Source: Acidobacteriota bacterium
GTDB taxonomy: Bacteria; Acidobacteriota; Terriglobia; Terriglobales; Acidobacteriaceae
NCBI GenBank assembly: GCA_016196065.1
Contig: JACPYL010000012.1
Coordinates: 310,001-374,000 of the forward strand
Length of the DNA stretch: 64,000 nucleotides
Direction: 5' to 3'
Shown: positions 1,726 through 11,592 of the stretch, piece by piece
Layout of the letters: each line of letters starts with the position of its first letter
Numbering within the stretch: position 1 is the first letter of the stretch
Translations under genes and position numbers: made by a program
The notes under the pieces: model-generated
The model's input: the letters and a program-made list of their open reading frames with translations, nothing else
What the model was told of the DNA's origin: nothing
Databases searched by the model: none

Positions 1726-2145
1726 GCGCACGACTTCCTGCGTCCGCTGGCCAAGCAGGCAAAAGTTGAATTGCATCTCACCAATGGCTTGCGCGGCGTC
1801 ACCGTGCGCGCCGACCGGCATCGTCTCGAACAGGTGCTTCTTAATCTCGCCTTGAATGCGTTTCGCTTTATGCCCGGTGGAGGATGGCTCGGTTTTCGGG
1901 GTGCTGATCTGGGTGCGAAGGGAGCCGAGATTGAGGTTCGAGATACGGGGCCCGGCATACCTGAAAGCGATTTGCAGCGGATATTCCAGGCTGGGTTCAG
2001 TACTCGTCCCGGCAGTTGCGGGCTTGGGCTGGCAGTGTGTCATCAGATTCTGGAACAGCATGGCGGCACGATCGCGGCAGAAAGCCGCGCGGGCGAGGGC
2101 ACCACGTTCCGACTGAACCTGCCGCGCACGGGAGTGGCGCAATGA
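1726..2145 (+). pseudogene. Flagellar sensor kinase, C-terminal HATPase fragment
   Basis: Same reading frame as the upstream kinase fragment and continuous with it apart from the TAG. It encodes the GHKL ATPase domain: an N box around RLEQVLLNLALNAFRF, a G1 box DTGPGIPESD, and a G2 region SCGLGLAVCHQILEQHGG. The first ATG in the frame is at 1771, inside the ATPase domain, so independent translation would yield an incomplete domain. With readthrough the whole kinase would be 404 residues, a normal length for FlrB/FleS-type kinases. Its stop overlaps the start of the response regulator (ATGA at 2142-2145), which shows the ancestral gene was translationally coupled to its partner. Confidence 0.8.
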
Positions 2146-3470
2146 AGCGCGTATTGATTGCGGATGATGATGCCGGGATGCGAGCGGCGCTCGAAACACG
2201 TTTTCTGCAGCGCGGCTGGCAGGTTGATCTGGCCGTGAACGGATCCGAGGCGCTCGGCAAGTTCCGTGAAAGCCGGCATGCCCTGGTCATCACCGACGTG
2301 CGCATGCCGGGACGCGACGGTTTCGAGTTGATGCGTGAGGTGCAGGCAACGTCACCACGAACCGCAGTCATTCTCCTGACTGCGTATGGTTGCGTTCCCG
2401 ATGCGGTGCAGGCGATCCAGAGCGGGGCATGTGACTACCTCGTCAAGCCCGTGTGTTTCGAAAAACTGGAATTGGCCGTTGACCAGGTTTTGCGGCGGGC
2501 GCAAGAAGAGAACAAGGACACCGAATCACTGATAGGACACTCGCCAGCATGGGAACTGGCGCTGGAGCGGGCGCGGCAAGCGGCGTCTACAGATGCCGAC
2601 GTCCTGATCGAAGCGGAAAGCGGCACGGGGAAGGAATTAGTGGCGCGGCTGATTCATCGCTTGAGCGATCGTAAGCGAGGGCCGTTTGTCGCGTTGAATT
2701 GCACTGCATTTCCGGAATCGCTGCTGGAAAGCGAGTTGTTCGGCCATGCGAAAGGTGCGTTCACGGGCGCGGTGGCGGCGCGTCCCGGAAAGTTCGAGAG
2801 TGCCAACGGCGGCACGCTCTTGCTGGATGAAGTCGGCGAGATGCCGCTTCCCTTGCAACCCAAGTTACTGCGCGCGTTGCAAGAGCGCGAGTTTGATCGC
2901 CTGGGATCGAATCAAACCGTGCATGTCGATATCCGCGTGATTGCGACCACCAATCGTCCCCTGGAAGCCGCGGTCAAGGAAGGCCGCTTTCGCGCGGATC
3001 TGTATTACCGGCTGAATGTGATTCCGCTTACGCTGCCTCCGTTGCGGGAGCGCTCAGGAGACATCGCGGAACTGGCAGAACATTTCGCACGCATCTATGC
3101 CGCGTCGGGCGCGGTGCCACCCCTAAGCAGCGCGCTGGTGGCCCGCTTACAGGAGCAGGTGTGGCCGGGCAATGTGCGCGAGTTGGGCAACTTCGTGCGG
3201 CGGGCGGTTGCCCTGTCCCGCGGCGGCGAGATTGGGCTGGAGGCATTCGACCACGGTAAACCATCGGCGCGCGGTGCCGTTCCGGAGTGGAAAGCGGGCC
3301 TGTCGCTGGGAGAAATGGAACGGCAACTCCTGGCGATGACTTTGGAATCGACGGGCGGAAATCGTTCGCGGACCGCGGAACTGCTGGGAGTGAGCCTGCG
3401 CACGGTTCGCAACAAGATCCGCGAATACGGGCTGCCCCCGAGGAGTAACTACATCCATGTCAATGATTGA
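2142..3470 (+). CDS. Sigma-54-dependent response regulator, FlrC/FleR-like
   Basis: NtrC-family regulator of 442 residues and the likely partner of the kinase upstream. The receiver domain (1-120) has the acidic pair D8/D9, phospho-acceptor D52 in VITDVRMPG, T80 and K102. The AAA+ domain (about 135-370) carries a Walker A variant AESGTGKE, GAFTGA, GTLLLDEVGE and VIATTN. The C-terminal Fis-type helix-turn-helix is complete (GNRSRTAELLGVSLRTVRNK). I chose ATG 2142 because translation then begins exactly at MKRVLIADDD and overlaps the kinase stop by four bases; the longer frame opening at 2016 adds unrelated sequence. Its end overlaps flgB by 14 bases. It appears intact, although its kinase is interrupted. 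Confidence 0.9.
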   Translation: MKRVLIADDDAGMRAALETRFLQRGWQVDLAVNGSEALGKFRESRHALVITDVRMPGRDGFELMREVQATSPRTAVILLTAYGCVPDAVQAIQSGACDYLVKPVCFEKLELAVDQVLRRAQEENKDTESLIGHSPAWELALERARQAASTDADVLIEAESGTGKELVARLIHRLSDRKRGPFVALNCTAFPESLLESELFGHAKGAFTGAVAARPGKFESANGGTLLLDEVGEMPLPLQPKLLRALQEREFDRLGSNQTVHVDIRVIATTNRPLEAAVKEGRFRADLYYRLNVIPLTLPPLRERSGDIAELAEHFARIYAASGAVPPLSSALVARLQEQVWPGNVRELGNFVRRAVALSRGGEIGLEAFDHGKPSARGAVPEWKAGLSLGEMERQLLAMTLESTGGNRSRTAELLGVSLRTVRNKIREYGLPPRSNYIHVND

Positions 3471-3819
3471 TACGCCCATGATGCGAAGCCTGGAACGAGC
3501 GCTGGACACAGGCGCTTTCCGGCACCAGTTAATTACCTCTAACCTCGCGAACGTGGATACGCCCGGATACCGGACCCGCGACATTCGTCCCTTCGCAGGC
3601 GAACTGCAGCAGGCGATGTCGGGCGAAGAGCCGATGTTTTCTCCGATGTCACACGAACTGCGCGGGTTGATGGAGCGGCCGGATGGCAACAATGTGAACG
3701 TCGACCGGGAGTCGTTGCTGCTCGCCGAGAATCAGTTGCATTTTCAACTGGCGGTGCAGTTTCTGCGCGCGGAATTCCGGCGGCTGTCGCTGGCGATCCA
3801 TGAAGGAGCAAACTCATGA
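3457..3819 (+). CDS. flgB: Flagellar basal-body rod protein FlgB
   Basis: Proximal rod subunit of the flagellum, exported by the flagellar type III apparatus. At 120 residues it is near the usual FlgB length. The N-terminal rod signature is clear (HQLITSNLANVDTPGYRTRD), followed by a variable middle with the typical NNVNVDRESLLLAENQLHF stretch and a C-terminal helix ending AIHEGANS. A ribosome-binding site (GAGGAG) lies 10 bases before the ATG. It overlaps the regulator upstream by 14 bases and the next gene by 4, so it sits in one transcript. The gene looks intact, but its usual partner FlgC is truncated by a fusion. Confidence 0.93.
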   Translation: MSMIDTPMMRSLERALDTGAFRHQLITSNLANVDTPGYRTRDIRPFAGELQQAMSGEEPMFSPMSHELRGLMERPDGNNVNVDRESLLLAENQLHFQLAVQFLRAEFRRLSLAIHEGANS

Positions 3820-4895
3820 ACCTGTTTGGCATGCTGGAAATGAGCGGATCGGCACTGGGCGCAGAACGGCAACGCGCCGAAGTGGTGGCCAGCAATATGG
3901 CGAACGCACAAACGACTCACACTCAGGCGGGCGGCCCGTATCGGCGTCAGCTGGTGATCTTCCAGGCGCAGCGAACGCCGCGCTTTTCGCTGACACTCGC
4001 CGGAGCCCAACGAGAAACCTCTTCGGCCGTACGCGTGGCCGCGGTCGTTTCAGATACGCGTCCACCGGTGCAGCGTTTCGAGCCCGGGCACCCGGACGCG
4101 GACAAGCAAGGCTATGTTTCGTACTTGAGTATTGTGTTCGATTGCCGGCTGGTTTCAGCGGAGCATCTGACCTATCGCGAATTTCTGCAACGTCTTCCGG
4201 AAATTGCCTATCTCGCGTCCTGCGATCTGGTGCCAGCGGCGGCGCAAGCAGTGCTGCAGTTAGATCTCGCGGTGGCCTTCCCCGTCATTGACTTGTTACT
4301 CGGAGGAGAGGGTAAGGGAGGCGATCTGGGCCGGGAGATCACTGCCATCGAAGAGCAGATCTTGGAGAGTGTCATGCGGATCGTGTGCCGTGAGATGCAG
4401 GCTGCCTGGCAGGCCATCGCACTGGAATTCCGGTTTGGGCAACGACAGCCAATCGCACAGGCACAGCGCCTGATGGTTCCCGAAGAAAAGAATTTGTGTC
4501 TCAGCTTCGAAGCGAAGATGGCGGAGACTCGCGGCACATTGAACATGGCGATTCCGGCCGTGGTTTCGAACGCTCTCCTGCGGAAGATCTCTGCTGACCT
4601 GAGTTTCCAGCGCCCGCGCAGCCCGGTGGAGGCGCGTCGCAGAATCGAAAGGCGTTTGCTCGGCGCCGCATTCCAAGTGGACCTTTTCGCTCCGACGCTC
4701 ACTGTCTCCCTCAACGCTTTGGCCAAGTTGGTACCGGGCTCGGTGCTGTTGTTTCCGGAAAGCATCGAACAACCGGCGACATTGATGGTGGATGAAATGC
4801 AGTTGTGTTCGGCCGCGGCGGTGCGAGTAGACGCGCAACGCGCGGCCCGCGTGCTCGCCATGGAAGCCAATCCGGCAAGGCCTGGTGAAGTATGA
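3816..4895 (+). CDS. In-frame FlgC-FliM chimera (rod protein start fused to motor switch protein body)
   Basis: Residues 1-101 are the N-terminal three-quarters of rod protein FlgC: ASNMANAQTT, GGPYRRQLVIF, then FEPGHPDADKQGYV. From about residue 102 the sequence is FliM from its middle domain on: CRLVSAEHLTYREFLQRLPE, VFPVIDLLLGG-like FPVIDLLLGGEG, and a C-terminal SpoA domain (about 275-345). Lost are the C-terminal helix of FlgC, which FlgC needs to assemble, and the N-terminus of FliM that binds phospho-CheY. The genes normally between flgC and fliM (fliE, fliF, fliG and export genes) are also absent. The frame stays open across the junction near 4115-4125. It overlaps flgB and the next gene by four bases each. 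It is either a real deletion fusion, probably non-functional, or an assembly join. Confidence 0.88.
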   Translation: MNLFGMLEMSGSALGAERQRAEVVASNMANAQTTHTQAGGPYRRQLVIFQAQRTPRFSLTLAGAQRETSSAVRVAAVVSDTRPPVQRFEPGHPDADKQGYVSYLSIVFDCRLVSAEHLTYREFLQRLPEIAYLASCDLVPAAAQAVLQLDLAVAFPVIDLLLGGEGKGGDLGREITAIEEQILESVMRIVCREMQAAWQAIALEFRFGQRQPIAQAQRLMVPEEKNLCLSFEAKMAETRGTLNMAIPAVVSNALLRKISADLSFQRPRSPVEARRRIERRLLGAAFQVDLFAPTLTVSLNALAKLVPGSVLLFPESIEQPATLMVDEMQLCSAAAVRVDAQRAARVLAMEANPARPGEV

Positions 4896-5716
4896 CCGAG
4901 TCCGCAAACACACCGCTCCTCGACGAGTTGCCTGCATGGCTCGAAGGCTGGGAGAAATGTATCCAGTCTGTGCTTTCGCAGACGACCGGCCAGAGCGTCG
5001 TTTTTGAGGCATCGGCAGAGACACTGCCGAATGCGGAATCCGACTTGTGGTTCACCGTAGTCGTCGGAGGGGCCGTGCGCGGCGAGATGTCGTTACGTTT
5101 GCCGGCTGCTACCGGCATCCGCCTGGCGCAAAAATTTCTTCAGGAAACGGAACCAGCGCCGGACTCACCCACCGCAGACCACAAAGAGGCGCTCGAAGAA
5201 CTGTTTCGTCAGATCGCAGGGCAAGCCGCCACTGCGCTGGCATCCACGGCAGGCGGAGAAGTGCAATTTCACCTGGCTGGTTCGGGAGCGCCTTCGTGGT
5301 CAGCATCGAGCAACAGGAATCTGCATACCCGCGACGAAGCGGGAGCGTCCATTTCCATTGAGCTTCAGATCAGCGCTGCACTGGCAGGCGCATTGCAGGC
5401 CAGTCACGAACCACCCGCACCCAAATCTTCTACGCCGGTGCTTACAGAGATTTCACCCTCTCCGGGGACCGCTCGCTACGAACGATTGCGCGACGTGATT
5501 CTCGAGGTCAAGTTGCGTTTTGGAAGCCGTCGCATGGTACTCCGCGATGTGCTGGCGCTCAGCGCAGGCGTGGTGGTGGAACTCGACAGCAATGTGAATT
5601 CTCCTGTCGATCTGCTGCTCGACGGCAGGGTTGCTGCGCAGGGCGATGTGGTGGTGGTCGACGGTAAATATGGACTACGCGTGACTGCGGTACTCGATTC
5701 CGCACCACCGTCGTAA
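4892..5716 (+). CDS. fliN: Flagellar motor switch protein, FliN/FliY-like
   Basis: The C-terminal 75 residues (about 196-268) form a FliN-type SpoA domain (YERLRDVILEVKLRFGSRRM, LSAGVVVELD, VDLLLDGRVAAQGDVVVVDG), the part that builds the lower C-ring. The first 150 residues are longer than in ordinary FliN. They include LRLPAATGIRLAQKFL and EALEELFRQIAGQA, which recall CheC/CheX-like domains of FliY, but the conserved asparagine of the phosphatase motif is not present, so activity is doubtful. The start overlaps the FlgC-FliM ORF by four bases (ATGA). FliM-FliN order is the normal one, so the deletion that made the chimera ended inside fliM. Confidence 0.82.
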   Translation: MTESANTPLLDELPAWLEGWEKCIQSVLSQTTGQSVVFEASAETLPNAESDLWFTVVVGGAVRGEMSLRLPAATGIRLAQKFLQETEPAPDSPTADHKEALEELFRQIAGQAATALASTAGGEVQFHLAGSGAPSWSASSNRNLHTRDEAGASISIELQISAALAGALQASHEPPAPKSSTPVLTEISPSPGTARYERLRDVILEVKLRFGSRRMVLRDVLALSAGVVVELDSNVNSPVDLLLDGRVAAQGDVVVVDGKYGLRVTAVLDSAPPS

Positions 5717-5726
5717 GGAAAACACT

Positions 5727-6659
5727 ATGCGCGAAGTTGGGCAGATCTTGAAGTGGCTGGAGCACCGGACAAGGGAATTCGAGCACTCCAAGTCGGGCTG
5801 CGGCCTCATCCTGTGTGCAGGGCCGAAGTCGCCGTGGGCACGATTATGGAAGAAACGAAGTGGAGCTCTTCTGCAAGGCGAGTTCTATTGCCAGCGGGAA
5901 TGCCTGGAAATTGCATTGACGGCACAGCTGGCGCGTCTGCACGCGCTGAATCCGGCGCCGCCTCCTTCCAACCGCATTCCTCTGGGACTGCTCATGGTGG
6001 CGCGCGGCTGGCTCACTCATGAACAGGTAGTGAAGGCTCTGGCTGCGCAAGAGAAGGCCCGCACTGGACAGATCGGGGACTGGTTCGAGCGACTCGGATT
6101 CGCCACCGAACAACAGGTCACTTCAGCGCTTGCTTTGCAATGGGGATGTCCGGTGACCTCCTCGTTGGATTCGGCAGCGATCCAGCCATTCGACCGGATT
6201 CCGCTCGGGATTCTGGAAGCTTTCCAGATGATTCCCGTGCATTTCGTCCGAGCGACGAACACGGTTTACATCGCGTTCGGGCAACGGGTGGATCATGCCG
6301 CGCTCTATGCGATCGAAAAAATTCTCGGCTGCCGCACTCAGCCCTGTGTCGCCGGGCGCAGGCATGTTGCCGACGAACTGGTCCGTATGCGACAACAGCC
6401 CCGGCCCCGCGAACTGGCATTTGGTCCCATGCGAGACTTCGCCGAAATTGGACGAGTCAGTGTCAGCTACATGTTGAAGCTGGGCGCCGAGGACGCCACC
6501 TTGGGCCGAGTTGGTGACTTTATCTGGCTTCGCGTGCGGGTCCGCAATGCTCATACGGACGTGGTATTCCGGTTGGAGAGTAGAGTTCGCGCTGCAAAAT
6601 CGGCAGTCGGGTTGGGGTATTCTTCGACCGACGCCAGTGAGATTGCTTTGATCGGATGA
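5727..6659 (+). CDS. MshEN-domain protein, probable c-di-GMP effector
   Basis: Protein of 310 residues with a MshEN (GspE N-terminal) domain and no ATPase. Two 24-residue motifs of the type xLG-6x-G-6x-V-3x-L-2x-Q follow one another: PLGLLMVARGWLTHEQVVKA and then IGDWFERLGFATEQQVTSAL, with a six-residue spacer. After them comes the usual second half (FDRIPLGILEAFQMIPVHFV through VAGRRHVADELVRM). In MshE this tandem motif binds cyclic di-GMP. The first 80 residues and the last 70 match nothing I know. It starts 10 bases after fliN with an AAGGAAA site, so it probably shares the flagellar transcript and may couple c-di-GMP to motility. Binding itself is inferred. Confidence 0.72.
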   Translation: MREVGQILKWLEHRTREFEHSKSGCGLILCAGPKSPWARLWKKRSGALLQGEFYCQRECLEIALTAQLARLHALNPAPPPSNRIPLGLLMVARGWLTHEQVVKALAAQEKARTGQIGDWFERLGFATEQQVTSALALQWGCPVTSSLDSAAIQPFDRIPLGILEAFQMIPVHFVRATNTVYIAFGQRVDHAALYAIEKILGCRTQPCVAGRRHVADELVRMRQQPRPRELAFGPMRDFAEIGRVSVSYMLKLGAEDATLGRVGDFIWLRVRVRNAHTDVVFRLESRVRAAKSAVGLGYSSTDASEIALIG

Positions 6660-7620: not shown

Positions 7621-8733
7621 TTACAGCGTGCGCTTGAACAGCGGCACGGCCAGGCCCAGCGTAACCAGCGCAAAAATTGCGAGGTACATGACGTCGGGAA
7701 GAATTGCGATCAGGCCGCTCTCTTTCAACAACAGCGCCTTGAATCCGTGAACGGCGTAAGTGAACGGATCCACAATCGCGATGGCGCGCAGCCATGCTGG
7801 AAATGCCTGGATCGGATAAATCGAGCCGCTGGGGAAGAACAGCAGTGTATTCAGAATTCCAAAAACAGCGCGGGGCACGAGCGGATCCTCAACCCGGACC
7901 ATCATCAGGAACATCATACCGTTGAAGGCCAGAGAGACGGTGACGATCATCAAGAGCAGTCCAAGCACGGTCCCCGGATTGAAGATGGTGCCGACTCCGG
8001 ACATGAGCGAGCCAATCAGGCTGATCACGACCCCGGTGAGTACGGCCTTGATGGCACCCGCTCCGTTCAGTCCGAAGACCAGTTCTGCTTTGGTGATCGG
8101 AGTCACGAGATATCCTTCGTGCACGCCTCGCGCCTTGTCGTCGATATAAAGCATTCCGCCGCCGATCATCACGGAGACGAACATCGCCAGCGCGATCGAT
8201 CCGGGCAGCAGGTACTTCATGTATTCGATGTAAGGATAGAGTTCCACCACATCGAGAGCGGTTTGCCGCAGAAGGCGAGGCTCAATCGCCGGCTGGTTAA
8301 GAGCTTCGGTGATTCCGGCCAACTTCTCCTGCATGGTGGAACTCATGAAGTTGTCGCTGTTGTCCACGATGAGCGCGATGCGCGGACGGTTCTGCTGATA
8401 AACGCGCGCCGAATATTGCGGTGGAATGATGACTGCGCCCTGGATCTTTCCGTTGCGCACATCTTCGCGCGCCTGTACTTCGTTGTCGTAGTCAACCGGC
8501 ACGAAGGTGCGCGCATTGGCGCGGACAGAATCGAACGCTTCCTTAATGCGAATCGCCTGTGTGCCGTGGTCCTCGTCTACGATGCCGAGCTTGGCATCGC
8601 GAATCTTTCCGCCAAACGCGTTCCCGAGCACGATCAGTTGCACCAGCGGGAAGATCATGGACACCATCATCAGCGCGGGCGAGCGGAAGAACTTGCGCAT
8701 CTCGCGCTCGATAATTGCCATCATGCGGTTCAT
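7621..8733 (-). CDS. ABC-2 type efflux permease
   Basis: Inner-membrane subunit of an ABC exporter, 370 residues, like YbhS/YbhR or DrrB. One membrane segment near the N-terminus (MMVSMIFPLVQLIVLGNAF) is followed by a periplasmic domain of about 130 residues and then five segments (GSIALAMFVSVMIGGGMLY, VLTGVVISLIGSLMSGVG and others), the standard ABC-2 layout. Its start overlaps the stop of the ATPase gene by four bases, so the two are coupled. It is last in a four-gene operon with tetR, hlyD-like and ATPase genes. Substrate unknown; drugs, ions or lipids are possible. Confidence 0.85.
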   Translation of the reverse strand: MNRMMAIIEREMRKFFRSPALMMVSMIFPLVQLIVLGNAFGGKIRDAKLGIVDEDHGTQAIRIKEAFDSVRANARTFVPVDYDNEVQAREDVRNGKIQGAVIIPPQYSARVYQQNRPRIALIVDNSDNFMSSTMQEKLAGITEALNQPAIEPRLLRQTALDVVELYPYIEYMKYLLPGSIALAMFVSVMIGGGMLYIDDKARGVHEGYLVTPITKAELVFGLNGAGAIKAVLTGVVISLIGSLMSGVGTIFNPGTVLGLLLMIVTVSLAFNGMMFLMMVRVEDPLVPRAVFGILNTLLFFPSGSIYPIQAFPAWLRAIAIVDPFTYAVHGFKALLLKESGLIAILPDVMYLAIFALVTLGLAVPLFKRTL

Positions 8734-9818
8734 GGTTGCATCCCCGGACGCTGCGGCATCGTGAACGCATGCGCCTTGACCAGTTCGTCGCGTAACTGGC
8801 GCCCGGTGTAGTGGACGAATACATCGTCGAGCGTGGTGTTCTGCACCGAGAGTGTGCGCACCGGAACGCGCGCCTCGACTGCCATTTCGACCAGCATGGT
8901 AGTGGTGCGGGAACCGTTGGCGGTTAGCACGCGGTACATGCCCGCGCCCTCGTGCTGGACAGAAGTCACTTCCGGCAGGGCACGCAAACGCTGCTCCCAG
9001 TCAGACGGTGGATTATCAAATTGCGCTTCGATCACATTCGATCCGGGCACGCTAGCCTTCAATGCCTCGGGACTATCGAGCGCGACAAGCTTGCCGTGAT
9101 CCACAATCGCAATGCGGTTGCAGAGTCGATCGGCTTCGTCCATGTAGTGCGTGGTGATGAGCACGGTGAGTTTGCGCTTCGACTTGATGTTGGTGAGCAT
9201 CTCCCAAACCGCCACGCGAGAGACAGGATCGAGACCTGTGGTCGGCTCATCGAGAAAGAAAATCTTGGGACTATGCACCAGTCCGCGCGCGATTTCGAGA
9301 CGCCGGCGCATGCCGCCGGACAACGTTTTCGTTTGCGCGTCCCGCCACTTTGTGAGGTCAACAGTTTCCAGCAACTCGTCGATCGCTTGCTTGCGGCGTT
9401 GCGCGGGAACATCGTAAAGCTTGGCGTAGATGCTCAGATTCTCCTGCACGGTGAGATCAATGTCGCTGGTCATGGCCTGCGGAATGACGCCGATCGCTCG
9501 TCGTGCTTCGTTCGGTTCTTTGCTCACATCGTGCCCCGCCACGCGGGCGAATCCTGAGGTGATTGGAATGAGAGTGGTCATCATCCGGATCAGCGTCGAC
9601 TTGCCTGCGCCGTTGGGGCCGAGCAGTCCGAAGATCTCGCCTTCCTTCACCTGAAAAGAAACATCGTCGACCGCGGTGAAGTCGCCATACTTTTTCACGA
9701 TGCGCGAGACTTCGATGGCGTTGGGCGCGTCCGCTGGAATTTCGCTCTTTCCGTTGAATTCAGAAACCGGAAGCGGAGCGTCATTGCCGGTGCCATGATT
9801 CGTGGGTACGTCGCTCAT
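8730..9818 (-). CDS. ABC transporter ATP-binding protein (DrrA/YbhF-like)
   Basis: Cytoplasmic ATPase of the exporter, 362 residues. After a 35-residue N-terminal extension come Walker A (GPNGAGKST), the Q-loop region, the signature LSGGMRRRLEIARGLVHSPK, Walker B (IFFLDEPTTGLDP) and the H-loop (LITTHYMDEA). The last 100 residues form the accessory domain typical of DrrA-type ATPases. It overlaps the permease and the HlyD-like gene by four bases each. YbhF is a tandem double ATPase; this one has a single nucleotide-binding domain and would act as a homodimer. Confidence 0.88.
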   Translation of the reverse strand: MSDVPTNHGTGNDAPLPVSEFNGKSEIPADAPNAIEVSRIVKKYGDFTAVDDVSFQVKEGEIFGLLGPNGAGKSTLIRMMTTLIPITSGFARVAGHDVSKEPNEARRAIGVIPQAMTSDIDLTVQENLSIYAKLYDVPAQRRKQAIDELLETVDLTKWRDAQTKTLSGGMRRRLEIARGLVHSPKIFFLDEPTTGLDPVSRVAVWEMLTNIKSKRKLTVLITTHYMDEADRLCNRIAIVDHGKLVALDSPEALKASVPGSNVIEAQFDNPPSDWEQRLRALPEVTSVQHEGAGMYRVLTANGSRTTTMLVEMAVEARVPVRTLSVQNTTLDDVFVHYTGRQLRDELVKAHAFTMPQRPGMQP

Positions 9819-10912
9819 GGCTTCCCTGCAGCTTCGGAATTCTTCGGCACTGTGCCCTTCAGTTGCTCAGGGGACACCAGCACTTCGGCGGTCATGCCGG
9901 GCACATACGCGCCCTTAGGATTGTCGAGGCGAACCTTCAGGACGAGCGTGCGAATATCGCGCTTGCGGCGGCCGACATCGCGCTGGGTGGCGAAGTCCGC
10001 TTCCGCGGCCTTGTAGAACACTTTGCCAGGAGTAACCGTGCCGCCCGGCAGGCGAACCCGAAGCGTGTCGCCGAGCCCGATGTGATCGGCGTCCGTCTCT
10101 GGAATCGCCGCGCGTACCCACGTGTCGCTGAGATCGACCACCGTGACGATCGCCTGCCCGGCAGTGATTACTTCTCCTTCACGCGCCGCCCGCACCAGCA
10201 CCGTCCCCGTTACCGGGGCATAGATCTTTGTGTAGCCGAGACGAACTTCGGCTTCCTTTAGTTGCGCCTGTGCGTTGGCGAGTTGCGCCTGCATGGAGGC
10301 GACCGTGCTTTCCGCGGCGCCGGCCTGGTTGGTGCGAGCACTCGCGGAATCAAGGTCGGCTTGCCCCGCGCGTACCTGATCCTTCAATGCCTGCACGCTG
10401 GCCTGCTGCGCTTTCAAATTTTGCTCCGCTTGTACTTTCTCCATTTCGGAGGCTACGCCGGCCTGTGCAAGTCCAACGATGCGGCGGCTGTCGCTTTCTA
10501 CGCGAGTCAGAGTGGCTTCGGATTGCGCAAGCTGTGCGCGCGCGGATTGCAATCTTGCCTGTGCGTTGGCGACATCGCCGGAGGTCGAGCCCTTGGTCGA
10601 TCGCTGCGTGAACTGGCTCTCGCTGACTTTCGAGCGAAGACTGGAAATGGTTGCTGCTGCCGCCCGCTCCTGCGCCTCGAGTTCCGCTGGATCGAGCGTC
10701 GCGATCAGGTCTCCCTGCTTAACGGAAGCGCCCTCTTCGACCAGCAGCTTCGCGATGCGGCCACCGACCTGCGGGCTGACCACGATCTGGTTCGAATCCA
10801 CTGTGCCGACCAGGACCAGGTCATTTCCCGCGGGCGTCGAGAGAACGTAATAGGCCGATGCGATCAACAGAAGGATGCCAAGCAGGATCAGGAATTTGTT
10901 ACGAACACTCAT
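9815..10912 (-). CDS. HlyD-family periplasmic adaptor subunit
   Basis: Membrane fusion protein of 365 residues (YbhG/EmrA kind). One N-terminal membrane anchor (FLILLGILLLIASAYYVLS) is followed by a split biotinyl-lipoyl domain (VSPQVGGRIAKLLVEEGASV and later VTGTVLVRAAREGEVITAGQ), a long helical hairpin between them (about residues 70-205, rich in Gln, Ala and Ser), and a beta-barrel domain. It would bridge the inner-membrane ABC pump to an outer-membrane channel. No TolC-like gene lies in this window. It overlaps both neighbours by four bases, so the operon is tightly coupled. Confidence 0.87.
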   Translation of the reverse strand: MSVRNKFLILLGILLLIASAYYVLSTPAGNDLVLVGTVDSNQIVVSPQVGGRIAKLLVEEGASVKQGDLIATLDPAELEAQERAAAATISSLRSKVSESQFTQRSTKGSTSGDVANAQARLQSARAQLAQSEATLTRVESDSRRIVGLAQAGVASEMEKVQAEQNLKAQQASVQALKDQVRAGQADLDSASARTNQAGAAESTVASMQAQLANAQAQLKEAEVRLGYTKIYAPVTGTVLVRAAREGEVITAGQAIVTVVDLSDTWVRAAIPETDADHIGLGDTLRVRLPGGTVTPGKVFYKAAEADFATQRDVGRRKRDIRTLVLKVRLDNPKGAYVPGMTAEVLVSPEQLKGTVPKNSEAAGKP

Positions 10913-11592
10913 GCACGAACTCCTTGCCGTGACGCCGATAGCGGTCGCGTAAACAGCGCCGCGGAGATGAAGTCGAGTACGAATGCGCGCCGTTCCGCGA
11001 TGTGCTCGTCCGTCAGTGGGTCAAACTTCATCACGGATTTGATCACCGGCGCCGCGCTGAAATAGAAAACAATTACTGCAACCATGGACGGAACAAAGTG
11101 CATGGGATCAATGGGACGAAATTCACCGGCGGCGATCCCCTCGCGCAATACTTCGCCTAGTTTTTGATAGATAGGCTGGAAATAGGCCCGCGCCACGCGC
11201 TTCATCTGGCCGATGCGGTCGGTGCCGCTGCGTATCCATTCTCCCTGAACGACGCGCGGGAAGCGTGGATTCGCCGCAATGTAATCGAAATAGGCGCCGA
11301 GGTAATTCAGTACCTTCTGGCGTGGTGCGAGGTTGCCCTCGAGCATGGGGACAACCGTATCGCGCAGGCCGCTGAAGACATGGTCGAGCACGGCCTCATA
11401 AATCGAATCTTTGTCTTTGAAGTAGTAATAGAGAAGAGCTTTATTAACACCGGCGGTGCGTGCAATCGCATCCGTGCGGGCGCCGGCGATGCCATGCTCT
11501 GCGAATTCGTCGATGGCCGCGTTCAAGATGGCGGCCCGGCTCTGTTCGGGCTTTCCGCGGGAACCGAGACGGGGTGCAGGCGAACGTTTCAT
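10909..11592 (-). CDS. TetR-family repressor of the efflux operon
   Basis: TetR/AcrR-type regulator of 227 residues and the first gene of the tetR-hlyD-ATPase-permease operon, the same order as cecR-ybhGFSR. The N-terminal helix-turn-helix is plain: RAAILNAAIDEFAEHGIAGA, then IARTAGVNKALLYYYFKDKD. The C-terminal ligand domain (about 75-215) resembles the CecR/TetR_C group. A 20-base palindrome lies three bases before the start codon, so the protein most likely represses its own operon and responds to a transported compound. The ligand is unknown. Confidence 0.87.
   Translation of the reverse strand: MKRSPAPRLGSRGKPEQSRAAILNAAIDEFAEHGIAGARTDAIARTAGVNKALLYYYFKDKDSIYEAVLDHVFSGLRDTVVPMLEGNLAPRQKVLNYLGAYFDYIAANPRFPRVVQGEWIRSGTDRIGQMKRVARAYFQPIYQKLGEVLREGIAAGEFRPIDPMHFVPSMVAVIVFYFSAAPVIKSVMKFDPLTDEHIAERRAFVLDFISAALFTRPLSASRQGVRA

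Follow-up and report, generated by a model that had tools for sequence, protein, structure and literature searches.

The 64,000-nucleotide stretch of DNA analysed here (the window) contains, within a flagellar operon, a single open gene that begins as flgC, for a rod protein, and ends as fliM, for a switch protein. This raises the question of whether the two genes are really joined in the organism, what became of the genes that relatives carry between them, and whether the hybrid does anything for the cell. A preliminary description of the window had offered two answers: a deletion that ended flagellar assembly in this lineage, or a misassembly.

The hybrid gene and its locus

The hybrid lies in the following setting (window coordinates, strand, feature and basis):

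1–824, +: FleQ-like sigma-54 activator gene, 3′ part, the gene beginning before the window (contig C12:309664); PF00158, ortholog of fleQ of congener G008 (66.5% over 402 aa)
934–2145, +: sensor histidine kinase (HK) gene with an in-frame TAG at 1723–1725; ortholog 71% over residues 9–422
2142–3470, +: sigma-54 response regulator (REC-AAA-Fis); Pfam and ortholog comparison
3457–3819, +: flgB; TIGR01396, 75.9 bits, above cut-off
3816–4124, +: FlgC residues 1–103 of 144, C-terminal region 104–144 absent; Pfam, NCBIfam and comparison with intact G008
4122–4124, +: the joint, a Tyr codon common to both parts; comparison of fused and intact genes
4122–4895, +: FliM from residue 68 to its end at residue 324 and the stop codon, the first 67 residues absent; Pfam, NCBIfam, structure match and intact G008
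4892–5716, +: fliN; PF01052 SpoA, 62.8 bits; CheX-like N-terminal match weak, below cut-off
5727–6659, +: MshEN-like gene (gspEN); PF05157, 19.4 bits, below the cut-off of 23.1; orthologs in relatives
7621–11592, −: downstream flank of ABC-2 permease, ABC ATPase, HlyD-like and TetR-like genes; comparison with relatives

The hybrid frame (3816–4895, +) is open over 359 amino acids, encodes its FlgC and FliM parts in one frame and overlaps flgB on one side and fliN on the other by four bases each; the open frame, the two parts and the overlaps had been described from the sequence, and the domain matches confirm the two parts. The switch from FlgC to FliM was likewise recognized correctly, but it had been placed at residues 101–102; comparison with the intact genes of G008 shows that the join falls after residue 103, where FlgC 1–103 of 144 passes into FliM 68–324 of 324. 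The hybrid is present once in the genome of the window (G000).

Residues 1–105 match FlgC among solved structures (12du_W) and are 85% and 87% identical to FlgC of congeners G008 and G020. The Flg_bb_rod motif is found by Pfam above its cut-off on residues 8–34, but the C-terminal 41 residues are absent and the NCBIfam FlgC model (TIGR01395) matches residues 6–103 with 88.2 bits, below the whole-protein cut-off of 102.1. Congener residues 104–144, which have no counterpart in the hybrid, carry the C-terminal helix, the packing partner of the N-terminal helix in the assembled rod. The FliM part retains most of the middle domain, including GGEG, and the SpoA domain: Pfam FliM (PF02154) matches residues 103–257 with 83.7 bits and FliMN_C (PF01052) residues 283–347 with 25.5 bits, both above cut-off. 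The PF02154 match covers profile positions 35–191 of 192, so that the start of the domain is absent; in agreement, residues 103–259 match the FliM structure 5x0z_E from its residue 34, and the NCBIfam FliM model (TIGR01397) gives 109 bits on residues 111–347, below its cut-off of 219.6. The missing FliM residues 1–67, where G008 reads MEKVLNQQEIDDM, include the N-terminal segment, which binds CheY. The loss of both this segment and the FlgC helix had been noted beforehand and stands.

Judged by the Pfam and structure matches, the FliM middle domain is itself cut, and the joint coincides with no domain boundary. In structure prediction the hybrid reached a mean pLDDT of 33.4 and a full-length G008 FliM control 33.5, both uninformative with shallow alignments. 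Since the FlgC C-terminus and the FliM N-terminus are gone and the cut lies inside a domain, the hybrid is probably a deletion scar whose frame stayed open by chance.

Gene order and flanks identify the fused and intact loci as one and the same locus; gspEN adjoins the 3′ side of fliN in the window and in relatives where that end survives. Relative to G008, the locus lacks fliE, F, G, H, I, J and K, flgD and E, fliL, O, P, Q and R, flhB, flhA and fliA (for fliE, J, K, L, O, P, Q and flhB the names are presumptive, given by place and not by family match), as the preliminary description had supposed. The deletion amounts to about 18 kb (about 18,000 bases) by comparison with intact congeners. 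The in-frame TAG of the HK gene, at residue 286 of 441, is the only clearly internal stop among the locus genes checked across genomes; the other stops in this comparison lie at most 15 residues from an end or from a deletion joint. HK orthologs in G015, G016, G017, G008, G020, G013, G003, G001 and G002 have no stop, and those in G011 and G019 have a single stop each, near the C-terminus.

A search of G000 for fliE, fliF and fliG had been proposed. They are absent from this locus as expected, but present on contig C10, in a second, distant flagellar set that matches fleQ, HK, response regulator, flgB, flgC, fliE, F, G, H and I, flgE, fliL, P, Q and R, flhB, flhA, fliA, fliM and fliN, with only weak matches for fliK and fliO and with flgD and fliJ not detected. 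Across the whole genome, FlhA, FliG_C and YscJ_FliF are matched in this set only, FliG_C by a single match, which leaves the hybrid no FliG partner of its own set. The separate flgC and fliM of C10 are 54% and 24% identical to the two hybrid parts; a second contig with full-length flgC and fliM and the genes between does therefore exist, but it is not the missing half of this operon. FlgI and flagellin-type genes, on both C10 and C27, are open. The proposal that the deletion ended flagellar assembly is thus not supported for G000, where the second set would make the loss tolerable. Two sets are also found in G001 (C81), and G013 appears to have two as well (C190, plus fliM on C144).

Distribution and origins of the joint

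The genus sample comprised 24 Acidobacteriota genomes, all that the genus search returned, with one genome per species. The same codon joint occurs in five of them (G000, G015, G016, G017 and G019). The hybrid frame is open in G000, G015 and G017, broken in the G016 assembly by ambiguous bases and lost codons (71 N over the stretch compared), and shifted in G019 at most 90 nt from a contig end. Across 61 genomes drawn from the genus, family, order and class, the fusion is confined to these five, and in a 200-genome family sample a whole-length match to the hybrid was found only in G000 and G017. The comparison with close relatives that had been called for shows flgC and fliM as separate genes in eight congeners, on one contig in G001, G002, G003, G008, G013, G020 and G021 and on two in G011; where measured, their spacing is 17–19 kb, with fliE...flhA-fliA in between.

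Nine further congeners have other deletions in the same operon (G004, G005, G006, G009, G010, G012, G014, G018 and G022), which brings the total to 14 of 24. In G009, fliL to fliN are present, fleQ to flgE were not found in the next 15 kb upstream of fliL, and neither FliF nor FliG was found in the bin. The remaining two genomes are G023, in which fliK to fliN are present and the contig then ends, and G007, which gave no match to the hybrid or to the flanking ABC-2 permease gene. In-frame hybrids were also left by the deletions in G004 (FliL::FlhA) and G022 (response regulator::FlgC).

No FliF, FliG (FliG_C) or FlhA was found in G015, G016, G017 and G019, bins listed as 75–92% complete, and in these the loss may have ended flagellar assembly. 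G006 and G010, listed as 98% and 97% complete, also lack FliF, FliG and FlhA, and their distal rod, ring and hook genes are open and constrained.

Four of the five fused genomes (all except G000) are metagenome bins that share a naming scheme (bog/fen). That they are bins, together with the N in G016, is what could be said for misassembly, and their common scheme also weighs against the reading preferred below. The intact congeners are bins in part too: G008 and G013 from bog, fen or palsa, all of which presumably represent one site, Stordalen Mire; G001, G003 and G011 from the SRVP series; and G020 a GL140 bin. From one fused genome to another, the two gene parts are 62.6–87.4% identical in DNA, and in all five they are joined at the same codon. 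The G000 assembly (5.53 Mb in 29 contigs, listed as 100% complete) has the joint inside an 837-kb contig, and no repeat at the joint is long enough to mislead an assembler. With eight congeners retaining separate genes, we conclude that the deletion is real and regard an assembly error as very improbable.

The deletion is also not peculiar to the lineage of G000, as had been assumed: the five fused genomes do not form one clade. The AU test rejects their monophyly for the FliM part (p 0.00037, and 0.00054 in a second run) and for flgB+flgC+fliM (p 0.000047); the FlgC part alone, which is too short and was present in 12 of 16 rows, does not reject it (p 0.26). Fused G016 is the sister of intact G013 in trees of ribosomal proteins (92/99), flgB-fliN (96/97), gspEN (98/96), fleQ+HK (97/95) and distal genes (100/100); the fliM and fliN parts alone, both poorly resolved, do not recover the pair. 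G000 is the sister of G014, in which fliM and fliA are full length, with ribosomal proteins (100/100), fliM (98/98), upstream genes (100/99) and downstream genes (100/99), and weakly in the distal-gene tree (84/65). A clade of G015, G016 and G017 receives p 0.051 with flgB-fliN, 0.009 with fleQ+HK and 0.06–0.39 with four shorter segments (response regulator, flgB+flgC, fliM, fliN), and a clade of G000 and G019 receives p 0.0375. The tree of the fliE-fliA genes of intact genomes agrees with the other trees, so the intact state looks inherited and not regained.

By these trees, two separate origins of the identical joint are firmly supported. About four origins, as the best trees imply, are likely, and our confidence in the independence of origins within each group is moderate.

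Breakpoints and how the deletions may arise

We rejected a long direct repeat or a microhomology hotspot as the explanation: microhomology at the flgC-fliM joint in intact genomes is 3 nt in G008, G020 and G013, 5 in G003, 7 in G001 and 1 in G002, and among all in-frame flgC × fliM pairs (64,900 in G001) the rank of the joint in local similarity varies (20th in G001, 729th in G011, 1,360th in G003, 3,774th in G013, 3,788th in G002, 4,553rd in G008 and 10,557th in G020). Because flgC and fliM share 788–952 pairs of 5-mers in the five genomes counted (G013 left out), a chance double strike on the same joint is unlikely. Folding of 70-nt windows around seven breakpoints in five intact genomes revealed no consistent hairpin, and no motif was noticed. 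A search of viral contigs for excised copies found neither FliF relatives nor relatives of the hybrid.

Individual ends are reused by the other deletions as well. The left end lies at HK codon 37–38, within 1–3 nt, in G010, G012 and G018, joined to gspEN at about codon 271, gspEN at 117 and fliM at about 121, respectively, and gspEN Tyr117 is the right end both in G012 and in G005/G006. The left end of G014 lies a few codons further into the same kinase gene, and the left ends of all four of G010, G012, G018 and G014 are within kinase codons 37–46.

We lean, with some reservation, towards a reading in which these observations form one series. In the proximal flagellar operon, a real deletion of some 18 kb joined flgC codon 103 to fliM codon 68; the hybrid would be a by-product that kept the reading frame, and with it the four bases shared with fliN, and would be neither a working rod protein nor a working switch protein. 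Operon deletions recur in the genus and reuse a few breakpoints, and they would be young relative to the species; the exact flgC-fliM joint would have arisen no fewer than two times, probably about four. Illegitimate recombination would make the deletions. For spontaneous deletions in Salmonella chemostats, the joints are illegitimate, with short homology, and the cut-off for a true deletion was deduced as at least 8 bp of junction microhomology (PMC3411829). The joints described here are alike in being illegitimate with short homology, and differ in having 1–7 nt where that cut-off is 8 bp or more. Ordinary illegitimate recombination would hardly be expected to yield identical joints from so little microhomology.

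A more tentative reading, to which we give clearly less weight, is that the proximal block is repeatedly removed at fixed nucleotides, through site-directed excision or as an ancient motile/non-motile polymorphism, and that the hybrid is the scar. The identical joints, and likewise the single ends in common, fit a site-directed deletion that recurs. Identical breakpoints in independent events, as site-specific excision would leave, are found here; the two ends show neither direct repeats nor a common core, the joint offering 1–7 nt.

As for the polymorphism, one old deletion allele would have persisted beside the intact allele in several species, as non-motile and motile morphs, while recombination within each species kept the flanks species-specific and left the joint alone common by descent. 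This trans-species polymorphism would cover at once the identical joint, the species-specific flanks and the full constraint on the hybrid and the distal genes, and it fits the identical joints and the constraint; it does not explain a left end at HK codon 37–38 with three different right partners, and taken by itself we consider it rather unlikely.

The deletion allele could also have been spread between species by homologous recombination. Exchange between species is suggested by G005 and G006, which share an in-frame hybrid of a shortened response-regulator receiver and gspEN with an identical joint (L120:1091–2065 and L117:13352–14014): they form one clade in upstream genes (100/100) and gspEN (96/93) but are separated by the ribosomal tree and by the downstream flank, the latter placing G006 with G012 (97/89). 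Their joint possibly represents a single event. For the flgC-fliM joint, no identity peak was seen among the fused genomes, and G000 is 62–83% identical to the others within 40 codons on either side, similar to its distance to intact genomes. Spread of this kind is thus improbable as the source of the shared joint.

Selection on the hybrid and the distal genes

Could the hybrid instead be functional and selected, for example as a SpoA-domain protein that partners FliN and the MshEN-like protein in the cytoplasm? Besides the frame being open in three genomes, its evolution is constrained. Pairwise dN/dS is 0.09–0.32 between fused genes and 0.01–0.30 between intact pairs. Two-ratio codon models reveal no difference in omega between fused terminal branches and the background: it is 0.162 vs 0.133 for the fliM part (p 0.19), 0.090 vs 0.071 for the flgC part (p 0.40), 0.081 vs 0.107 for flgB (p 0.26) and 0.182 vs 0.162 for fliN (p 0.48); for fliM and fliN, genomes carrying other deletions, G014 and G018 among them, count as background, and G022 is left out. 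Pooled omega on fused branches is 0.147 vs 0.123, and its profile rejects 0.20 (2dl 6.57) and does not reject 0.18 (2dl 2.82). By arithmetic from this profile, in a mixture with neutral evolution roughly 7% of the fused branches could be neutral. The bound on the neutral share from stop codons is 18% for G000, where about 16.6 stops would be expected in the hybrid had the branch been neutral throughout and none is seen, and 49–90% for the other fused genomes.

The same constraint is found in distal genes. We tested flgF, G, I, K, L and a flgN-like gene (FlgI identified by a match, the rest by resemblance and place) in a class of five genomes without FliF, FliG and FlhA (G006, G010, G015, G016 and G019; G015 missing from flgL), against a background that includes G000, with its second set, and G014; G017, in which no FlgI or flagellin match was found, is absent from this test. 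None of the six genes showed relaxation in the test class (p 0.13–0.97). Taken by lineage, distal omega is above the mean in G015 (p 4e-6) and G010 (p 6e-4), as it is in intact G008, G003 and G020, and below the mean in G016, G019, G000 and G014; short branches tend to high values (G008 0.247, G015 0.231).

Because distal genes that should be useless without an export apparatus are equally constrained, the constraint seen in the hybrid does not prove that it has a function: a young loss can account for it. The unrelaxed selection could instead reflect a function of the hybrid, but the joint ignores domain borders and the G019 frame is shifted near its contig end, and we think a functional hybrid improbable. 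Since neither hybrid nor distal genes show relaxed selection, either the losses are young, as in the reading that we prefer, or intact alleles persist within the species.

Deletions can remove flagellar genes and leave chimeric genes at their joints, and the loss of flagella, a frequent event, is as a rule interpreted as one-off decay. The present case is alike in that the middle of an operon was removed and two genes were joined. It differs from an ordinary flagellar-gene deletion in that the same codon joint is found in several lineages and that breakpoints are common to other deletions. Among open-licence papers, which are only part of the literature in print, we found nothing on a FlgC-FliM fusion or on parallel flagellar deletions.

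In this genus, 14 of 24 genomes are deleted in one operon, the joint is codon-identical in lineages that form no clade, and the distal genes remain fully constrained. Because a codon-identical joint recurs while the distal genes stay constrained, a mechanism such as targeted excision, or else a long-lived motility polymorphism, is called for, and both are directly testable in peat and soil samples. Site-directed excision, if true, would mean that non-motile cells are made anew in each species of these soil Acidobacteriota.
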